A program made the translations under genes and the position numbers. The notes beneath the pieces are model-generated. The model made no database searches. It was not told the origin of the DNA and was given only the letters and a program-made list of their open reading frames with translations. Of a DNA stretch of 64,000 nt, positions 26,051 through 49,164 are shown piece by piece; positions within the stretch are counted from its first letter, which is position 1, and the number at the start of each line of letters is the position of its first letter. The stretch comes from Fusobacterium perfoetens. GTDB taxonomy: Bacteria; Fusobacteriota; Fusobacteriia; Fusobacteriales; Fusobacteriaceae. The stretch lies in NCBI RefSeq assembly GCF_021531475.1, contig NZ_JADYTX010000003.1:1-64000 (forward strand), written 5' to 3'.

Positions 26051-26863
26051 TTGATAGAAAGAAAATTAAGGGTTGATTATATTTCTGTAAATGACATCAA
26101 GGAATATGAAAATAATGCTAAAGAACACCCAGATTGGCAAGTTGAACAAATAGCTAATTCAATCAGAGCTTTTGGATTTAACGACCCTTTGGCACTAGAT
26201 GAGGACAACCAAATAATTGAAGGGCACGGAAGATATTTGGCAGCAAAAAGAATGGCTATGAAAAAAGTTCCTTGTATATACTTGAAAGGTTTATCAGAAG
26301 ATGAAAAAAGAGCATACATTATTACTCATAACAAATTAACGATGAACACTGGATTTGATTTAGAGGTGTTAGAGTATGAACTAAACTCTTTAAAAGTACA
26401 AAACTTTGATTTAGGTCTAACTGGTTTCACAAATTCAGAACTTGATGATTTATTGGAAAAAAGCAAACAAGAACTTGAAGATTTTGAAACAGAAGAAAAA
26501 GATAGACTTGATAACGATTATTCATTAAAAATAGAAGCTCCAATTTATGAGCCTAAAAATGAGAAACCTGAAATCTCTGAAATGGTTGATTATACCAAAT
26601 ACAATCAACTTATCGAGGAGATAGAAAATAGAAAAGATATATCAGAAGAAGAGAAAAAGTTTTTAAAGTTCGCAGCAACAAGGCACATTGTATTCAACTA
26701 TGAAAAAATAGCAGATTATTATGCTAACTCTGATAAAAATACACAAGAATTAATGGAAAATTCAGCACTTGTAATAATTGATTTTGAAAAAGCTATTGAG
26801 AATGGTTTTGTTCAAATGTCTAAAGAGACAATGCAAGAGTTTGGAGCTGATTGTGATGAGTAA
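26051..26863 (+). CDS. ParB/Srx-domain protein (DNA modification cassette)
   Basis: 270 aa, TTG start with GGAGGTG 7 nt upstream. The N-terminal ParB-like domain (residues 4-135) contains IIEGHGRYLAAKRMA and YIITHNKLTMN. The C-terminal domain (RHIVFNYEKIADYYA ... LVIIDFEKAIENGFV) is one often found beside phage ParB-methyltransferase genes. Its N-terminal half is clearly paralogous to the 27739 protein. Not a partition protein: no helix-turn-helix or ParA. Role in DNA-base modification is inferred from neighbours. Confidence 0.82.
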   Translation: MIERKLRVDYISVNDIKEYENNAKEHPDWQVEQIANSIRAFGFNDPLALDEDNQIIEGHGRYLAAKRMAMKKVPCIYLKGLSEDEKRAYIITHNKLTMNTGFDLEVLEYELNSLKVQNFDLGLTGFTNSELDDLLEKSKQELEDFETEEKDRLDNDYSLKIEAPIYEPKNEKPEISEMVDYTKYNQLIEEIENRKDISEEEKKFLKFAATRHIVFNYEKIADYYANSDKNTQELMENSALVIIDFEKAIENGFVQMSKETMQEFGADCDE

Positions 26864-27734
26864 TGAAATAGATTGGAAAAAAGAAAAGTTCGCTATTTTT
26901 ATTCTTACTCACGGAAGACCTGACAATGTAGTTACGTATGACACCGTTAGACGACACGGATATACTGGAGAGATATATTTACTCATCGACAATGAGGATA
27001 AGATGGCAGACAGCTATTATGACAAATATGGTGATGAAGTAATTATGTTTGACAAACTAGCTATATCTAAAACTTTTGACCAAGCAGATAATTTTGAAGA
27101 TAGAAGAGCTATTGTTTATGCAAGAAATGCTGTATTTGATGTAGCTGAAAAATTAGGCTTAGACTATTTTATGCAACTTGATGATGATTATACAAGTTTT
27201 TCTATAAGAATAGATGAAAATAAAAATTTCACACATAAAAGTGTTAAAAATTTAGATAGACATATAAAAAGTTTATTAGATTTTTATAAAAAGGTCCCTA
27301 ACTTAAAAGCAATATCTTTCGCACAAGGTGGAGATTTTATTGGTGGAGTTAGTTGTTCTTTATTAAAAAGTAATCTAGCTAAAAGAAAATGTATGAACTC
27401 TTTCTTATGTTCGGTCCACAGAAAATTTACTTTCAAAGGTAGAATTAATGAAGATGTTAATACATATACTCACGAAGCTAGTAAGGGTATGTTATTTTTT
27501 ACATTCCCATTTGTAATGCTTAATCAAAAGGTAACACAAACAAATAATGGTGGAATGACTGACATATACAAAGCTAATGGAACTTATATAAAAAGTTTCT
27601 ACTCGGTATTGTTCCAACCCTCATCTGTAAAAGTTTCACTAATAAATGGTCCTAGTCAATCAAGAATACATCACAAAATAAAATGGGTCAATACTATTCC
27701 TCATATTATAAGTGAGATTTATAAGAAAAGGTGA
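26856..27734 (+). CDS. TET-associated-type glycosyltransferase (GT-A)
   Basis: 292 aa from ATG 26856 (MSNEIDWKKEKF), overlapping the ParB gene by 8 bp; a frame open from 26778 is less likely. Family features: FAIFILTHGRPDNV at the N-terminus, YLLIDNEDK, and the metal-binding LDDDY near residue 120. This matches the TAGT family, predicted to glycosylate modified bases in phage DNA. No TET/JBP oxygenase or hydroxymethylase is seen in the window, so the acceptor is unknown. Confidence 0.75.
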   Translation: MSNEIDWKKEKFAIFILTHGRPDNVVTYDTVRRHGYTGEIYLLIDNEDKMADSYYDKYGDEVIMFDKLAISKTFDQADNFEDRRAIVYARNAVFDVAEKLGLDYFMQLDDDYTSFSIRIDENKNFTHKSVKNLDRHIKSLLDFYKKVPNLKAISFAQGGDFIGGVSCSLLKSNLAKRKCMNSFLCSVHRKFTFKGRINEDVNTYTHEASKGMLFFTFPFVMLNQKVTQTNNGGMTDIYKANGTYIKSFYSVLFQPSSVKVSLINGPSQSRIHHKIKWVNTIPHIISEIYKKR

Positions 27735-27738
27735 TTAG

Positions 27739-28425
27739 ATGATAAAAGATTTACAAATTGAAATGATTAGTATAGACAAGATAATTCCTTATGAGAATAA
27801 TGCTAAGTTACACCCAAGGGAACAAGTAAATCAAATTATAGGTAGTATAAAAGAATTTGGTTTTAACGACCCAATAGCCGTTAATGAAAAAATGGTAATT
27901 ATAGAGGGACACGGAAGAATGTTAGCTGCACAAAAAATGGGACTAAAAGAAGTTCCTTGCATAGTTCTTAAGGGATTAACACCTGCACAAGAAAAAGCAT
28001 ATATGCTAGCACATAATAAGTTGACAATGAACTCCGATTTTGACATTGAATTACTGGAAGAAGAATTAAAGTCATTAAAGAATGAAAATTATGATTTATT
28101 AATGACAGGATTTAGTGAAGATGAATTTAAAGAGATATTTGATACAAATACGGAAAGCCAACTTTTAAAAGATAGGTATGAGCTAGAAGAAGAAAGCAAG
28201 GGAGCTTTGAACAGAAAATTTATAGTACCCCCATTCTCTGTTATAAATAGCTCTGCTTCTCCTTGGGTAGATTTAAAAAATAAATGGAAAAATTATTTTG
28301 ATAGTAAAAAAGGTAGAGCAAAAGATTTAATAGGAACAATGTATGGAACTAGTGAATTTGATGGTGCAATTTGTGAAGTCTTTTATCAGTGGTTTATGCC
28401 GACGGGGGGGGGGGCAAGATACTAG
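27739..28425 (+). CDS. ParB domain half of a ParB-DNA methyltransferase, truncated at a G tract
   Basis: Residues 1-135 form a ParB-like domain (IIEGHGRMLAAQKMG, YMLAHNKLTMN). From about 155 the methyltransferase part starts (FIVPPFSVINSS) and reads to FYQWFMPTGGG. The frame then enters the 11-G tract (28404-28414) and stops four codons later. One extra G (12) or two fewer (9) would join it to the 28389-29045 frame, giving a protein of about 435 aa. As sequenced the enzyme is OFF. Confidence 0.85.
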   Translation: MIKDLQIEMISIDKIIPYENNAKLHPREQVNQIIGSIKEFGFNDPIAVNEKMVIIEGHGRMLAAQKMGLKEVPCIVLKGLTPAQEKAYMLAHNKLTMNSDFDIELLEEELKSLKNENYDLLMTGFSEDEFKEIFDTNTESQLLKDRYELEEESKGALNRKFIVPPFSVINSSASPWVDLKNKWKNYFDSKKGRAKDLIGTMYGTSEFDGAICEVFYQWFMPTGGGARY

Positions 28426-29045
28426 ATTGTTTTAGTGGTGGAGTTGTAAGAGGTGCTGTTGCTGAAAGTCTTGGGTATAAATACACAGGTTTTGATATAA
28501 GACAAGAACAAATTTCGCAAAATAAAAAAATATGCAAGTTTTTAAATTTAAGTCCTAAATACATATGTGATGATAGCAGAAATATAGAAAAATACAACTT
28601 GGATAATGATTATGATTTATTATTCAGTTGCCCACCTTATGCTGATTTAGAAGTGTATAGTGATTTAGAGGGAGATATATCAAATAAAGAATATGATGAG
28701 TTTTTAAAATTGTATGAGGATATAATAGAAAAATTTACTTTAAAGTTAAAAGATAATAGATTTGCTATTTTTGTTGTTGGAGATATAAGAGATAAACAAG
28801 GCTATTATAGAGATTTTATATCAGATACAGTGAAAGCATTTAAAAAGGCAGGTCTTAATTTATATAACCAAGTAATTTATGTTGAACCTGCAGGTACAGC
28901 TCCTATAAGAGCAGGAGGACAATTTAATTCGTCAAGAAAAATATGTAAGATACATCAAAACATTTTAATTTTCTATAAAGGTAATATAAGAAAAATAAAA
29001 AACGAGTTTGGAGAATTCGAAAATAATATAGAAACATTTATTTAA
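28389..29045 (+). CDS. DNA methyltransferase half, currently out of frame
   Basis: The coding sequence continues KILDCFSGGVVRGAVAES (SAM-binding motif I) and LLFSCPPYADLEVYS (motif IV, CPPY). The order I then IV is that of gamma/alpha-type amino-methyltransferases. The GTG at 28389 is only the frame limit: there is no RBS, and the true N-terminus is the 27739 gene. C-terminal part is complete (GTAPIRAGGQFNSSRK, a conserved tail in such ParB-linked methylases). Confidence 0.85.
   Translation: MVYADGGGGKILDCFSGGVVRGAVAESLGYKYTGFDIRQEQISQNKKICKFLNLSPKYICDDSRNIEKYNLDNDYDLLFSCPPYADLEVYSDLEGDISNKEYDEFLKLYEDIIEKFTLKLKDNRFAIFVVGDIRDKQGYYRDFISDTVKAFKKAGLNLYNQVIYVEPAGTAPIRAGGQFNSSRKICKIHQNILIFYKGNIRKIKNEFGEFENNIETFI
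28404..28414. repeat. poly-G tract of 11, probable phase-variation switch
   Basis: Eleven consecutive G in otherwise AT-rich DNA, positioned at the seam of one methyltransferase gene. Slipped-strand changes of one base would turn the enzyme on or off. A sequencing length error is the alternative. Confidence 0.85.
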
Positions 29046-31056: not shown

Positions 31057-33219
31057 GTGGGAAAAATAGATAAGAAAATTAAAAAAGATATGATTGTATC
31101 TAAAGTAATAGAGCTAACAAATAAATATCCTATTTCATATGATGAAAAAGATGAGGAAATTATAAAAAGAATGTTAAAAGATGTAGATATAGCTTCGGCA
31201 ACACAAAAACTTGAAAGGGCTGTTGCTAGTAGAAAACTTATTCCAAGAACAAGAAATCAAGAATTGAGTGAGGTAGAAAAAGATATTCAACAAAGATTTT
31301 CAGGAATTAAATTCAACAGAATAATAAATCATCTTATAACAGCAAGATACTTTGGGTTTTCTTGTTTTGAGATAATTTATAATGAGGATTTCACAATAGA
31401 AACTCTAATACCTATACCATTTGACCTTATTACATATGATTTTAAAGAAAATAAATGGAAGTTAAAAATAGGTAGCGAAACAGTAGAACTAAACAAGCAA
31501 AAATTCTTATTAGCGATACATAAATGGGACCCTAAAAATGCAAAAGGTAAAAGTATATTTGATTGCTGTAATAAGACATTCTTAAATAAAGAACTTTACC
31601 AAAGACAACTTACTTCTATTTCTCAAAAGTATGGAGATATTATTGTTATATACCCATATGATGTAAATATGAAAGAAGAAGAAAGAGAGGAACTAAGGAA
31701 GTCGGTTGAAAATATAGGTTCATCTCACAGCATTGGAGCACCAGTTGATTTTAATGAGGAATTCGATTTAAAGAAAAATATAGATTTCATTAAGTTATCA
31801 GATTTAGACCCTAGTATTTATACAGAACTTGAAAAAATAGAAAAAGAAAAAATTGTACAAAATATTTTAGGCTCTACATTAACAATGGACAACGGAGGAG
31901 GAACTGGCTCATATTCTCTCGGAGAGGTGCATAGGCAAGGTTTTGAAGAAGTTGTTGAAGAAATATGCAGGTTTGTTTCGGATAGCTTGTATCAGCTTAT
32001 AGAGTTAGATTCTAGCTTCTTTGGATATAATCCTAAAGATTTTTACTGGGAACTAGAAAAAGTTATTACTGATGAAGAAAAAGAGGTAAAAGACAGAAAG
32101 AGAGAAGAAGTATTATCTTTAAAAATGGATAATATAAATAAATTTCTTACTGGAGGATATAAATTATCAAAAGGGTATCTTTCTAATTATTTAGGAATAG
32201 ATGAAAAAGATATAGAAGAGGTAAAAATATTACCTACTATATCGAATGGACCAGAGTTCTCTGAAACCAAATTAGATAAACTATTGAAGAGAGTTGAGGA
32301 ACAAAACTCGACAGTTCTCGAAGAAATAGAAGATAGCTTTGGAGAGTTCTTTGATGATATTTCACCACAACTTAGAGAACAATTAGAAAAAATTAAAACA
32401 ATAGATGATTTAGAAAATATAGTTTTAAATATGCAAAACTTTAAAGATAAAATGCTTATTAGTTTTTTAAAAGGAATTACGGACGATATAGCAATATCAA
32501 CAGGTATTTTTATAAGTGAGGAATTAAATCCTTTTAAAATAAAACCTGAAGAAGCTATACAATTCTTTTTAAAGAAAACACCAGTGTTGTTTGATAAGTT
32601 AGATGATATTTCAGCAAGTATTCAAGAAAAATATTTTTACATAAAGAAAAGCACAAGTTTAGAAGTCACGAAAGCATTATATAAAAATCTTTTATCAGCT
32701 CTGGAAGAGGGGAAATCATTTAAAACTTGGTTAAAAGATTCAGGCAATATATTAAGTTTATCAGGATTTGGAGACAATCCTTGGTACTTGGAATTAATAT
32801 ACAGAAATAATATGATGACCTCATATAATGCAGGAACTTTCTATAATCAAGAACTTAATAAGAAATATAAACCATATGGTATGTATGACGCCGTAGGAGA
32901 TAACAGAACTACTGATTTATGCCTAGCATTAGACGGAAAGGTTTATCCTTTAAATCATAGTTTTTGGAAGAGCTTCCTACCACCAAATCATCACGGTTGT
33001 AGAAGTAGAAGAATCGCTTTAAGCAAAGATGACGTTAAGGAATATGGTTTAACTATAAGCAATACTCTAACCGATAAAATCAAAGAATTGAAGAAAGAAC
33101 TTGGAGATTTTAAAGGCAATCAAGTTGAAAATTTAGCTAAATCTTTAGAAAAAAAAGAAACACAAGTAAAAGAACTGAAAAAAGAAGTTACTAAAAAACT
33201 AGAGCAATTATCTTTATAG
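31057..33219 (+). CDS. portal (DUF935, Mu gp29-like) fused to Mu gpF-type head morphogenesis protein
   Basis: 720 aa. Residues 40-430: portal with IPRTRNQELSEVE, FGFSCFEIIY and GSTLTMDNGGGTGSYSLG. Residues 560-680: Mu gpF/minor head domain with YDAVGDNRTTDLCLALDG and LPPNHHGCRSR. In Mu these are two genes. A coiled coil ends the protein. Start: the GTG at 31057 lies on the RBS AAGGAGGTG itself; initiation at ATA (31066), 8 nt after AGGAGG, fits better, otherwise ATG 31090. Confidence 0.88.
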   Translation: MGKIDKKIKKDMIVSKVIELTNKYPISYDEKDEEIIKRMLKDVDIASATQKLERAVASRKLIPRTRNQELSEVEKDIQQRFSGIKFNRIINHLITARYFGFSCFEIIYNEDFTIETLIPIPFDLITYDFKENKWKLKIGSETVELNKQKFLLAIHKWDPKNAKGKSIFDCCNKTFLNKELYQRQLTSISQKYGDIIVIYPYDVNMKEEEREELRKSVENIGSSHSIGAPVDFNEEFDLKKNIDFIKLSDLDPSIYTELEKIEKEKIVQNILGSTLTMDNGGGTGSYSLGEVHRQGFEEVVEEICRFVSDSLYQLIELDSSFFGYNPKDFYWELEKVITDEEKEVKDRKREEVLSLKMDNINKFLTGGYKLSKGYLSNYLGIDEKDIEEVKILPTISNGPEFSETKLDKLLKRVEEQNSTVLEEIEDSFGEFFDDISPQLREQLEKIKTIDDLENIVLNMQNFKDKMLISFLKGITDDIAISTGIFISEELNPFKIKPEEAIQFFLKKTPVLFDKLDDISASIQEKYFYIKKSTSLEVTKALYKNLLSALEEGKSFKTWLKDSGNILSLSGFGDNPWYLELIYRNNMMTSYNAGTFYNQELNKKYKPYGMYDAVGDNRTTDLCLALDGKVYPLNHSFWKSFLPPNHHGCRSRRIALSKDDVKEYGLTISNTLTDKIKELKKELGDFKGNQVENLAKSLEKKETQVKELKKEVTKKLEQLSL

Positions 33220-33228
33220 GGAGTAAAA

Positions 33229-33774
33229 ATGTTTAATGTAACGGATAATAGCAAGTTATTTCTCAGTGGTATGGAAAAACTAAAAATAAATGCTCAGAAC
33301 ACAATTCCTCTGATGAGAAGAATAGCAGAAGATATGAAAACAAAGGTAGATTTTAGATTCAAGCAATCAAAAGACCCTAATGGTAATTCTTGGGAGCCGT
33401 TATCAGAAGCTACAATATCTCAAAGAAGAAAAAACAGCAGTAAACCTCTAATTGATTCAGGAGAGTTAAGAGCTAGTATCAATGCAAAAGTTACTCCAAC
33501 AATGGCTATTGTAGGAAGTAATAAAGAGTATGCAGCCTACCAAAACTTTGAAGCTAAAAAGGGAGAGTTCGGAACAGTAAATGTAACTGAAAACGTAAGG
33601 GAATTTACAAGAACTAGAAGAGGTAGAAGAGAGAATGTAAGAGCATTTAGAAGAACACGTAGAATGGATATACCTTGGGGATATAAACCTGCTAGACAGT
33701 TTATAGGATTTAGTGATAATCAACGGAAAATTTATGCTTCTTGGGTTAGAAAGTATTTGTTGAAAGGAAAGTAA
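33229..33774 (+). CDS. Mu gpG-like virion morphogenesis protein
   Basis: 181 aa of the Phage_tail_S family, probably tail-completion or head-tail joining. Family pattern MKTKVDFRFKQSKDPNGNSW and LIDSGELRASI is visible. C-terminal region is unusually Arg-rich (three RTRR-type clusters at residues 120-145), ending PARQFIGF. Confidence 0.85.
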   Translation: MFNVTDNSKLFLSGMEKLKINAQNTIPLMRRIAEDMKTKVDFRFKQSKDPNGNSWEPLSEATISQRRKNSSKPLIDSGELRASINAKVTPTMAIVGSNKEYAAYQNFEAKKGEFGTVNVTENVREFTRTRRGRRENVRAFRRTRRMDIPWGYKPARQFIGFSDNQRKIYASWVRKYLLKGK

Positions 33775-33775
33775 A

Positions 33776-34570
33776 ATGCAAAATTTAAAAATTATATTTG
33801 GTACTAAATGCAATCTTAATTGTGATTATTGCTATCAAAAGCACGAGAATAACGAAATATCACAAGAAGTTTTAGATAAAATTATAGAAAAAATCAATAA
33901 GAATAACGAAAGTTATAACATTCATTTATTTGGTGGAGAGCCATTACTGTATTTAGAAAAGATTTTTTATTTACTAGATAGAATTGATATTAAAAAACAT
34001 AATTTCAGTATATCTACAAATGGAACTTTAATAAATGAGTTTGGGAAACTAGAAGAGAAATTAGGTTATCCTATACAAAATTTAATATCTAATAAAAGTA
34101 TTGGAAACTATGAAAAATTAAATAAAAATTCTCAATTTAGATTTATTTTAACTAAAAGCAATTTAGAGGAACTTGAAAGAAAATTAGATTGGTTTTTAGA
34201 ACAATATGGGAATGATTTTTCTATTTACTGTAATTTCTATGAGGAATGGTCGCAAGATTTATTAAATAGAATTGAAGTTATAGAGAGAAAAATACATCTA
34301 AATTATCCAAGAATAAGAGTTTTAAAACCTCTAATAACTAAAGGCACTCCTTGTAATTGTAGAAGCATTATAATTAATTGGAATGGAGATTATTTAAAAT
34401 GTCATAGAGACCCTAATAAGGTTATAGGAAATATATTTACTGATGAATTTATAGTTTCTAAAAATACTGAATGTATATTTAAAGATGATATTCAGAATAA
34501 TTTTATTAGAACTATGAGTAATACAGAAGAAATGGCTTGTTGTGATTATGACGCAGTGTTTTATTGTTAA
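33776..34570 (+). CDS. radical SAM/SPASM-type enzyme within the head operon
   Basis: 264 aa. Radical SAM CX3CX2C motif in TKCNLNCDYCYQ (residues 10-21), GGEPLL (SAM-binding GGE) near 52, and STNGT. The C-terminal CNCRSIIINWNGDYLKC fits the SPASM pattern CX9-15GX4C, with more Cys in CIFKDD and ACCDYDAVFYC for auxiliary Fe-S clusters. SPASM proteins usually modify peptides or proteins (sactisynthases, anSME) or alcohols. Located 1 bp after gpG with RBS AAAGGAAAG, so part of the late operon. The substrate is unknown. Confidence 0.88.
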   Translation: MQNLKIIFGTKCNLNCDYCYQKHENNEISQEVLDKIIEKINKNNESYNIHLFGGEPLLYLEKIFYLLDRIDIKKHNFSISTNGTLINEFGKLEEKLGYPIQNLISNKSIGNYEKLNKNSQFRFILTKSNLEELERKLDWFLEQYGNDFSIYCNFYEEWSQDLLNRIEVIERKIHLNYPRIRVLKPLITKGTPCNCRSIIINWNGDYLKCHRDPNKVIGNIFTDEFIVSKNTECIFKDDIQNNFIRTMSNTEEMACCDYDAVFYC

Positions 34571-34582
34571 AGGAGGGATAAA

Positions 34583-34702
34583 ATGTTTCAAACATTTTTA
34601 AACGGAGTACAACCACCACTTATAATTATAGTGACTGGGTTGGCAATAGTTGGTATTTTAGCCTTGATTAAACATCACAAGGATAAAAAAAATAAAAAAT
34701 AG
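34583..34702 (+). CDS. 39-aa membrane peptide after radical SAM gene
   Basis: Begins MFQTFLNGVQPPLIIIV; one hydrophobic span (residues 12-29) and a basic tail (KHHKDKKNKK). Strong RBS (AAAGGAGGGA). Adjacency to the radical SAM gene makes it a candidate substrate, but it has no Cys. Resembles holin-like or class II bacteriocin-like small membrane peptides in size only. Confidence 0.6.
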   Translation: MFQTFLNGVQPPLIIIVTGLAIVGILALIKHHKDKKNKK

Positions 34703-34717: not shown

Positions 34718-35719
34718 ATGCCGAAAATTTTTAAAGCAGGGAATTATGGTAAAAAAGGAAACTACTCAATAGATACCTTAAAATCTTGGGTAGGAAAAGA
34801 ATTTAATATTACAGCAGGACACGTTGGGGATTGGTTAAAAAACGGATTTCCAACAACAGCAATTCCAGTTGCAGGGAGTTGTAAAGTTACTAATGTAGAT
34901 GACCAAGGATTTTTAATAGGGGAATTTAATTACAACTCCTTTGGAGATAGTATCAAAGACAAATACCCTAATCTATCAATAGGGATTGGAGAGGACGGAA
35001 CACCTAATCATTTAGCATTGTTAGGTTATGCACCACCTCATATAAAGGACTTGGACCAATCTTTTAGTGAGTTTTCCCAAGATTTAACATCTATCGAAGA
35101 AACAGAAACGATAGAGTTTGCTGAAGAAAGTGACCAAGATAAAATTGATGAATTTATAGCATTTTTTAGAGCAGTAGATGTTTCAAAAGTAAATTACAAG
35201 GCATTATTTGATGTTCTTTACGAGAAAGACGATGAAAAATATGCCGTTAATAAACTAAAAGATTTAGGTTATACAGTAGAAAAAACAGCAGAATTTTCAG
35301 AGGAAACATTAAAATCTATCGCTAATACTTTAGGAATGATAGTTACAGCTAAACCAGTGAATGACTTAACACCTGATGAAATTTACGCAAAAGCGAAAGC
35401 TGAATTTACTAGAGAAGCAGAGAAAGAAGAAACAAAGAAAAATATTATCAAGATGTTTCCACCAGTAATGCACAAGATACTTGAATTTGCTATTGATAAG
35501 GCTTATGAAGAAAGCGAATATACAAACATCATTGAGTTCTCGGAAGATGACAAAACAAGTATGGCAACTAAGTTAAAAGAGTTTTCTCAAAAAGAAACAC
35601 CTTTTAAAGAACTATTTAAGAATGTCACTAGTAAAATAGAATTTTCAGAGGAAGAAAACAAAGAAAAAAGCGAAGAAGAAATAAAAATAAGAATAGGAGG
35701 ATATTATGAATTTAGTTAA
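34718..35719 (+). CDS. prohead protease/scaffold (Mu gpI-like)
   Basis: 333 aa. The N-terminal protease-like part contains GHVGDWLKNGFPTTAIPVAG and the conserved YPNLSIGI ... LALLGYAPPHIKDL. The C-terminal two thirds is acidic, helical and rich in EFSEE repeats, as in scaffold regions. Matures the capsid. Position before decoration and capsid genes agrees. Confidence 0.8.
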   Translation: MPKIFKAGNYGKKGNYSIDTLKSWVGKEFNITAGHVGDWLKNGFPTTAIPVAGSCKVTNVDDQGFLIGEFNYNSFGDSIKDKYPNLSIGIGEDGTPNHLALLGYAPPHIKDLDQSFSEFSQDLTSIEETETIEFAEESDQDKIDEFIAFFRAVDVSKVNYKALFDVLYEKDDEKYAVNKLKDLGYTVEKTAEFSEETLKSIANTLGMIVTAKPVNDLTPDEIYAKAKAEFTREAEKEETKKNIIKMFPPVMHKILEFAIDKAYEESEYTNIIEFSEDDKTSMATKLKEFSQKETPFKELFKNVTSKIEFSEEENKEKSEEEIKIRIGGYYEFS

Positions 35720-46628: not shown

Positions 46629-47777
46629 ATGGCAGATTATACACAAAATACAAAAGCGAATTTACCACATTTAAGTCAATCTTATTCATCACCTTTTGAT
46701 AGTCACCCTGTCTTTTCTCAAATCGGAGGGTGGGTATGTGATGAAAATACGGCTGATTTAAAATATAAACTAAATAAAACAGATTGGAGTAAAAAAGCAG
46801 ACGGAAGTCCATCTAATCTTGATGGAACAGACGGAGATGTTATGGTTAAAGTTCCTGCTTTCTTTATGAAAGTTACTAGAATGCCTAATGGAAAACCAAA
46901 ATTTGAAATTGACGACATAATTCCTGATGAATTTGGAAGCAATGGAAAGCCTGGATTCTTCGTTCACCCTGCGTTTAAAATGAGTAATGGGAAAGTAAGA
47001 CCATATTTTTTATGGGGAGCATATCCTGCATTTGAAAAAAGTGGAAAATTAAGAAGTATATCAGGTGTTCTTCCAACTACATCAAAAAACAAAGGAGATT
47101 TCAGAGATTTAGCTAGACAAGGTAGAAATACAGACTATGATATTTCTTCTGTATTTGAGAGAGTAGCTATACAAATATTATTTTACACTGAATTTGGTAC
47201 TTTAGATTCTCAAACAGCTTGTGGAAATGGGATAGTTAATATGACTTGGGAATCAGGAACAGGAGCAGAACAAAATCAAAGAATAACTGGAGGAAGTGAT
47301 GCTCTAGGAGATAGAAGTGGTTATTTAGAAAATGGAGCATACAAAAATGGTAAATGTTCCGTAAGATATAGAGGAATTGAAGATTTATGGGGGAATGTTT
47401 ATAACTTTTTAACTGGGATAATGGTTACTGATAAAGGGTGGCATTATACAAATGAACATTCTAAAATGGACACAATTTCTTCAATGACACTATATGCTAA
47501 AGATTTAAAAGAAAAAGTTCCTAATGGATATATTTCAGATATGGAATACCCAGTAGGTGCCGAATGGTTATTTTTACCTAAAACTACTGGAGGGTCAGCT
47601 ACTACTTATTTCTGCGACTACTATTATACACACGACCCAGGCGAAGAAAACGTACTGCTTGCCGGTGGTCATTGGGACAGTGGCTCTTTTGCAGGGCTTG
47701 CGTATTGGAATTGCCCTAATGTCGCTTCGACTTCGGGTGTGAGTCTCGGTGCTCGCTTGTCTTGGGCAAAGCAATAG
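46629..47777 (+). CDS. DGR target: C-type-lectin-fold tail adhesin with variable C-terminus
   Basis: 382 aa, presumed receptor-binding protein. The C-terminal half has FGE-sulfatase/C-lectin signatures (YRGIEDLWGNVYNFLTG, YPVGAEWLFLP, AYWNCPNVASTS). The VR covers residues 342-377 of 382. Twelve residues differ from the template: 345, 348, 350, 351, 354, 358, 363, 370, 372, 373, 375 and 376. N-terminal part carries WVCDENTADLKYKLNKTDW and FFMKVTRMPNGKPKF. RBS AGGAGG. The gene ends 73 bp before the TR. Confidence 0.9.
   Translation: MADYTQNTKANLPHLSQSYSSPFDSHPVFSQIGGWVCDENTADLKYKLNKTDWSKKADGSPSNLDGTDGDVMVKVPAFFMKVTRMPNGKPKFEIDDIIPDEFGSNGKPGFFVHPAFKMSNGKVRPYFLWGAYPAFEKSGKLRSISGVLPTTSKNKGDFRDLARQGRNTDYDISSVFERVAIQILFYTEFGTLDSQTACGNGIVNMTWESGTGAEQNQRITGGSDALGDRSGYLENGAYKNGKCSVRYRGIEDLWGNVYNFLTGIMVTDKGWHYTNEHSKMDTISSMTLYAKDLKEKVPNGYISDMEYPVGAEWLFLPKTTGGSATTYFCDYYYTHDPGEENVLLAGGHWDSGSFAGLAYWNCPNVASTSGVSLGARLSWAKQ
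47654..47758 (+). repeat. DGR variable repeat (VR)
   Basis: 105 bp aligned without gaps to the TR at an offset of 197. Sixteen mismatches, every one at a template A: ten A to G, four A to C, two A to T. Two are silent. Non-A positions (about 77) are all identical. Confidence 0.97.
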
Positions 47778-47806: not shown

Positions 47807-47850
47807 TTTTTAAATGAAATATAGGTTGAATTACTTATACCGAAAAAGAC

Positions 47851-47955
47851 ACTACTTACCGGTGGTAATTGGAACAATGGCTCTAATGCAGGACTTACGT
47901 ATTGGAATTGCAATAATGTCGCTTCGACTTCGAGTGTGAATATCGGTACTCACTT
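47851..47955 (+). repeat. DGR template repeat (TR)
   Basis: Non-coding donor copy of the VR, read as RNA and copied by the reverse transcriptase. In the VR frame it is rich in AAY codons, which gives maximum amino-acid range when A is mutated. It continues to a stop in that frame but has no start. The invariant GTCGCTTCGACTTCG block (47918-47932) is the most GC-rich part. Confidence 0.96.
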
Positions 47956-48108: not shown

Positions 48109-49164
48109 ATGAAAAGAGTAGGTAATGTGTGGGATAAAATAATCTCATATGAAAATTTAATGAATGCTCATTTAAGAGCTAGTAAAGGCAAAGGGCATTA
48201 TAAAGAAGTTATAAGGGTTAATGAGAATCCTGAACATTTTATCAAGAATCTTAGATTTTTACTTGCTAATAAAATTTATTATATCAATTATAGTGATTAT
48301 AAAATGGAAACCATAGATGATAAAGGGAAACAAAGAGATATATATAAATTATCCTATTACCCTCATAGAATAGTGCAATGGGCAGTAGCTCTTCAAGTAG
48401 AGGATAGATTTTTAAAGAACTTAATACACGATACTTATTCCAGTATAAAAAACAAAGGTATAATTTTAGGTGTAAAAAGAATTAAAAAAGCCTTAAAAAA
48501 TGAAGAAGAAACTAGATATTGCCTAAAACTTGATATGAAGAAATATTATCCCTCAATAGATAATTATATCTTATTTGATATTATAGAAACACTAATAAAA
48601 GATAGGGAATTGTTAGAATTATTAAGAATGATAATATTTAGTTACGGAATTAAAGGGCAACCTATTGGCTCATTATTATCTCAATGGTTTGGAAATTTGT
48701 ATTTATCTAAATTGGACCATTACATAAAAGAGAATTTAAAAAGTAAATGGTATTTCAGATATTGTGATGATATTGTATTATTAGGAAGCTCCAAAGAAGA
48801 TTTAAGAAAAAAATTAAGATGTATAGAGATAGTAGCACAAGAAAAATTAAATCTAACTATCAAAGAGAATTTTCAGATTTTTCCTGTCAGGACTAGAGGA
48901 ATAGATTTTTTAGGATATCGTTTCTTTGGAGAATACACTTTATTAAGAAAAAAGATATTAAAGAAAATGAAAAAGAAATTAGTACCACTTCAAGATAAGA
49001 ATATTTTAACTAATTCAGATAATAGTGCTATATGCTCATATAAAGGTTGGTTAAAGTATTGTGATAGTTATAGGCTATGGGAAAAATATTTTACACCATT
49101 AAAAGATAAATATTATATATGTGAAAAAGGTTATAAAAGGAGAGTGAACATATGTTTAAAATAG
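48109..49164 (+). CDS. DGR reverse transcriptase
   Basis: 351-aa RNA-dependent DNA polymerase of the group II intron/retron-like DGR clade. Motif A CLKLDMKKYYPSID (Asp 142), the DGR-typical IGSLLSQ at 186-192, catalytic YCDD at 218-221, and LGYRFF in the thumb region. No maturase or endonuclease domain. RBS AAAAGAGG before ATG. The TR lies 150-260 bp upstream on the same strand, the usual DGR order. Confidence 0.96.
   Translation: MKRVGNVWDKIISYENLMNAHLRASKGKGHYKEVIRVNENPEHFIKNLRFLLANKIYYINYSDYKMETIDDKGKQRDIYKLSYYPHRIVQWAVALQVEDRFLKNLIHDTYSSIKNKGIILGVKRIKKALKNEEETRYCLKLDMKKYYPSIDNYILFDIIETLIKDRELLELLRMIIFSYGIKGQPIGSLLSQWFGNLYLSKLDHYIKENLKSKWYFRYCDDIVLLGSSKEDLRKKLRCIEIVAQEKLNLTIKENFQIFPVRTRGIDFLGYRFFGEYTLLRKKILKKMKKKLVPLQDKNILTNSDNSAICSYKGWLKYCDSYRLWEKYFTPLKDKYYICEKGYKRRVNICLK

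Follow-up and report, generated by a model that had tools for sequence, protein, structure and literature searches.

What does a radical-SAM enzyme act on when its gene lies in the head operon of a phage, and is the small membrane peptide encoded beside it involved? A prophage of Fusobacterium perfoetens raised this question within the window, as we call the whole stretch of 64,000 nucleotides that was analyzed. The preliminary description of this DNA had placed the enzyme gene 1 bp after gpG and a 39-residue membrane peptide with a strong ribosome-binding site next to it, and both reading frames were found as described (Table 1). The gpG stop lies at 33774 and the enzyme start at 33776, with the Shine-Dalgarno-like AAAGGAA of the enzyme gene sitting within the 3′ end of gpG. 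That description had also held that this is not a normal structural-module gene, which was half right. The head-operon position of this radical-SAM gene is unusual, but tail modules of phages repeatedly contain such genes, which are a known kind there.

Table 1. Features of the prophage discussed in the text, with positions in the window.
Feature	Position	Strand	Remarks
Prophage	about 15.8–51.2 kb		contig C3 of the 2.0-Mb genome
TAGT DNA-glycosyltransferase-type gene	26778–27734		PF20691, 7.5e-37
Fusion of a Mu-type portal and a gpF-like minor head protein	31057–33219	+	PF06074 and PF04233; same operon, 5′ of the enzyme gene
gpG-like virion morphogenesis/tail-completion protein	33229–33774	+	PF05069 (Phage_tail_S), 3e-20; PHROG connector
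Radical-SAM enzyme, 264 aa	33776–34570	+	PF04055; C12/C16/C19; GGEP motif at 53–56; auxiliary-cluster-type C193/C209/C233/C264
One-TM peptide with basic C-tail, 39 aa	34583–34702	+	KD19 maximum 2.61; tail net charge +5
Putative prohead protease/scaffold	34718–35719	+	11 of 61 genomes of the family and 9 viral contigs have a homologue; no significant Pfam match
Diversity-generating retroelement	46629–47777, 47647–47758, 47844–47955, 48109–49164		RVT_1, 1.7e-13 (reverse transcriptase)

Radical-SAM core and C-terminal region

The gene product belongs to the radical-SAM superfamily. It matched Pfam PF04055 well above the cut-off of 29.5 (3.2e-14, 53.9 bits) and has the ligands C12, C16 and C19, in keeping with the earlier description of a CX3CX2C enzyme of the peptide-modifying type in a structural operon. 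Its cysteines lie at positions 12, 16, 19, 152, 193, 195, 209, 233, 255, 256 and 264. Outside the core, C209, C233 and probably C193 and C264 are the sole cysteines that align with relatives, which suggests one auxiliary cluster of twitch-like type. The CX13GX4C motif first proposed for this region was misread, as the actual spacing is C193-X10-G204-X4-C209 (or C195-X8-G). The resulting CX10GX4C may be set beside the SPASM/twitch pattern CX9–15GX4C, and C209 and C233 are kept among close relatives. The Pfam SPASM profile (PF13186) matched the window enzyme below its cut-off (E 0.024) and the relatives just under it (E 4e-4 to 6e-4; 20.5–21.1 bits against 21.5). Overall, the sequence suggests a short twitch/SPASM-like C-terminus.

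An AlphaFold model of the enzyme (mean pLDDT 66.7; last 36 residues unmodelled at pLDDT about 23) was compared with structures of known SPASM enzymes, as had been proposed. Among SPASM/twitch enzymes with peptide or protein substrates, it aligned best to PqqE, anSMEcpe and ChlB at Z 12–13.5, with CteB, SkfB, SuiB and EpeE ranking below these. For PqqE, anSMEcpe, SkfB and EpeE, Z ranged from 11 to 13.5 at 10–17% identity. These four share with the window enzyme the radical-SAM core fold and probably a C-terminal auxiliary-cluster region, although its auxiliary domain is poorly modelled. MoaA, BlsE, BtrN and viperin-like structures scored nearly equal to PqqE, anSMEcpe and ChlB. The structure matches fit protein modification, without proving it.

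None of the named NCBIfam families was matched at its cut-off, and the clade of this enzyme fits no NCBIfam family. The top score went to the ranthipeptide maturase PapB (NF047865; 6e-17), at 61.8 bits against a cut-off of 340, with the radical-SAM core in common (residues 4–88). Unlike PapB, the window enzyme has no Cys-rich substrate beside it. The prokaryotic viperin profile (pVip) matched the core alone (6e-14, residues 10–88; 45.6 bits against 180). TIGR04115 (cut-off 350 bits) was absent from the best 25 NCBIfam families, which puts its score far short of that cut-off, and the enzyme has no Cys-repeat neighbour.

Relatives of the enzyme and their distribution

Six relatives were identified at 28–43% identity, in Fusobacterium phage phiKSUM and five prophages. 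The phiKSUM protein (EBOLISVW_CDS0070, OR492276) is a direct homologue, 38% identical over 234 residues. Among 98 genomes of the phylum, the search yielded one further full-length relative (G021, 42–43%) and a distant one in an Ilyobacter polytropus prophage (G040; 28–37% depending on the aligned part), while the remaining matches were partial, to other radical-SAM proteins. Viral contigs gave three more prophage relatives (L081, L082 and L083) together with the Ilyobacter one (L084); viral contigs queried with the enzyme alone or with the major capsid protein returned none. Scanning genome contigs gave three distant matches, to the radical-SAM core only, and among plasmids the Ilyobacter prophage was the sole relative. 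A check of the homologues for loss of the Fe-S ligands found CX3CX2C and the GX4C cysteine intact in all six relatives, and C233 in all save the distant Ilyobacter protein. Within the phiKSUM clade dN/dS was 0.05–0.11 (about 0.07), indicating that the enzyme is under strong purifying selection there.

As in the window, the relatives adjoin structural genes, here of the tail. In phiKSUM, G021, L081, L082 and L083, the enzyme gene lies 4–8 bp 3′ of the gene for a giant tail protein, which ends in GEVxYIAMEID. The phiKSUM homologue is also in a structural module but, unlike the window gene, outside the head operon and without a small peptide. Downstream, phiKSUM-type loci and G021 encode a 214–224-residue protein and then a small Prp-like protein, whose match to Prp proteases was sub-threshold (E 0.058) and was not accepted. 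The Ilyobacter enzyme has just upstream a TSxSTTTSW-repeat protein with an N-terminus similar to PHROG tail proteins. Its operon (L084, 6284–9934), which lies just before a lysozyme-like gene, comprises this Thr/Ser-rich tail-type protein, a 201-residue protein, the radical-SAM enzyme, a methyltransferase-like protein and a further small protein. The neighbouring structural gene varies among carriers (gpG, giant tail protein, or repeat protein), and blastp among the window, phiKSUM, G021 and G040 phages found the enzyme to be the only protein common to all. No substrate common to the carriers emerged from this, which counts against the virion-protein target proposed below.

To locate related head operons, we used as a marker the protease gene, whose product we presume to be akin to Mu-type gpI; the phage collection contained no relatives of it. 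The enzyme was present in none of 16 related head operons with a readable gpG–protease junction, several of which are near-duplicates, such that the 16 do not represent independent events. One of these phages, the prophage of G024, has the same gene order as the window prophage from portal to tail (portal 64%, gpG 65%, tape measure 47%) and carries neither the enzyme nor the diversity-generating retroelement, with no match to TAGT or its neighbouring methylase. In a relative of the phiKSUM-type tail locus (L121), the enzyme gene is missing and a gap of about 12 bp separates the tail protein from a 206-residue protein. Neither the head slot nor the tail slot is fixed, as related phages lack the enzyme at both. 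Enzyme-free head operons, the empty tail slot and a low GC content (23.5%, compared to 28.7–34.1% in neighbouring late genes) together show that the enzyme behaves as an accessory (moron-type) gene. The same genome contains another related head operon (L113, G000:C5, 13905–19796), which is also without the enzyme and has an 84-residue protein in its gpG–protease gap.

Radical-SAM genes in other phage structural modules

Two known systems come close to this one. Enzymes of TIGR04115 ("radical SAM peptide maturase, CXXX-repeat target family"; L087, L089, L098 and L101) are radical-SAM/SPASM proteins of phage tail modules, adjoin PHROG tail or baseplate genes on viral contigs, and are thought to modify an adjacent phage-encoded protein. 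They possess a full SPASM domain in about 440 residues (719 in the L098 fusion) and occur by Cys-repeat proteins, whereas the window enzyme has 264 residues, no family match and no repeat partner. CXXX-repeat proteins were seen beside these maturases in tail/baseplate modules at L087 9528–9920, L089 9204–9875 and L098 5531–6634.

In Thermus phages Cumys and phiMa, too, a radical-SAM gene is found among the late tail/baseplate genes, but its product has about 410 residues and, unlike the window enzyme, is accompanied by a DUF483 protein and by a neighbour dense in HxD repeats (PMC11437467). The Cumys module follows baseplate and tail collar fibre genes, and its authors proposed an unknown DNA modification (PMC11437467). 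In Cumys (L152, 3961–6251) and in L085, L093 and L099, the radical-SAM gene is directly 3′ of a gene for a dense H-x-D-repeat protein. This protein looks like a candidate substrate, as an alternative to the published idea. Campylobacter phages CP220 and CPt10 encode 11–12 radical-SAM genes, which were read as metabolic (PMC2853527).

Candidate substrates

The structural-module neighbours of its relatives suggest that the enzyme probably modifies a protein of the virus particle. By context, it would work like a late-module protein-modifying enzyme, and modification of a virion protein is plausible. We therefore propose, with moderate confidence, that this accessory, presumably late-expressed radical-SAM enzyme of twitch/SPASM-like type acts on a protein of the phage virion, with components of the tail or neck as the likeliest targets. 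Judging from the 1-bp spacing, its gene would be co-transcribed with the head and tail genes. Host reductants would then reduce the CX3CX2C cluster for cleavage of SAM, as fold and motifs imply, and radical chemistry may crosslink, epimerise, methylate or oxidise a residue of the candidate virion protein, a modification that would be set in the anaerobic host. A more specific version is offered tentatively: these enzymes may form a clade of fusobacterial phages that can move between head and tail modules and whose target would be a folded virion protein, not a peptide, for instance through a crosslink or an epimerised residue in a tail or neck protein. When giant tail proteins from loci with the enzyme were compared with those from loci lacking it, they differed by general divergence, and no motif set the carriers apart.

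We know of no virion protein that a radical-SAM enzyme modifies, and the papers searched included none on a phage-encoded radical-SAM enzyme acting on virions. If modification of a virion protein is correct, phages of anaerobes would harden or diversify their particles by radical chemistry, adding a layer that sequence-based annotation cannot show. The presence and absence of the enzyme among close relatives makes this directly testable.

A small-molecule or nucleic-acid substrate is a less likely alternative, to be considered given that MoaA, BlsE, BtrN and viperin-like structures scored nearly as high as the protein-modifying ones. One form of this, a metabolic, tRNA or defence moron (QueE-, MoaA- or viperin-like) that acts on host metabolites, is unlikely. 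Such enzymes have the radical-SAM core in common, as reflected in the pVip match above. However, coverage of the enzyme was partial, the QueE profile scored 41.9 against 260 and viperin fell similarly short, and the host genome holds a separate QueE-sized radical-SAM gene elsewhere (C17).

Action on phage DNA, e.g. together with the TAGT glycosyltransferase, is a more doubtful proposal. The same prophage does encode both TAGT and a DNA methylase, the Cumys authors suggested DNA modification for their radical-SAM module, and the Ilyobacter enzyme is followed by the methyltransferase-like and small proteins. Against this, the window enzyme is encoded in a late structural operon 6 kb away from TAGT, and the genes of phiKSUM, G021 and L081–L083 directly follow the tail protein with no adjacent DNA-modification gene. 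TAGT itself lies between ParB-like and N6/N4 methylase genes (26051–29045), a possible DNA hypermodification cluster.

The adjacent gpG protein is a poor candidate. Its gene adjoins that of the enzyme, translation is likely coupled, and its two F-x-R motifs (REFTRTRR and RAFRRTRR) might be crosslinked cyclophane-style. At both positions the window has Phe, where His stands in nearly all loop-bearing gpG proteins from relatives lacking the enzyme (Tyr in one). This His-to-Phe pair was the only enzyme-correlated difference in gpG, and it comes from a single lineage. The Arg-rich segment in the C-terminal half of gpG, singled out earlier as a possible target, is not supported as a specific one: the loop also occurs in enzyme-free relatives and is missing from gpG of the enzyme-bearing G021 prophage.

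Least probable of all is the RiPP-like pair suggested in the preliminary description, in which the enzyme would alter the 39-residue peptide to give a bacteriocin- or holin-like product. The two genes are adjacent, with a 12-bp gap. The peptide's reading frame encodes MFQTFLNGVQPPLIIIVTGLAIVGILALIKHHKDKKNKK, with AAAGGAGGGATAAA upstream, and the gene has AAAGGAGGGATAAAATG and a strong ribosome-binding site. Nevertheless, the peptide contains no Cys, Trp, Tyr or Ser, has no obvious leader, and matched nothing above curated cut-offs in Pfam or NCBIfam. A search for the pair in other prophages found the peptide next to none of the six enzyme relatives, such that the maturase–precursor linkage of a RiPP cassette is not conserved. 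The preliminary description had itself named an enzyme that mostly lacks the peptide in relatives as evidence against the idea. Conversely, 10 of the 16 enzyme-free head operons encode a one-TM basic peptide of 30–54 residues. Three have it in the same gpG–protease slot (53–54 residues; G024 twice and G029), and G033, G034, L102, L104, L105, L106 and L110 have one of 30–42 residues just before gpG. These peptides were grouped by likeness, which does not establish their mutual homology. Enzyme and peptide are separable both ways: the small peptide gene is independent, is often seen in head operons of this kind, and is not the enzyme's partner. Ruling it out clears away a false RiPP lead.

The prophage also carries a diversity-generating retroelement with a reverse transcriptase (Table 1). 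Its variable repeat of 112 nt forms the end of a 382-residue protein of the tail-fibre region. The template repeat is 83% identical, and 17 of the 19 differences fall at template adenines.
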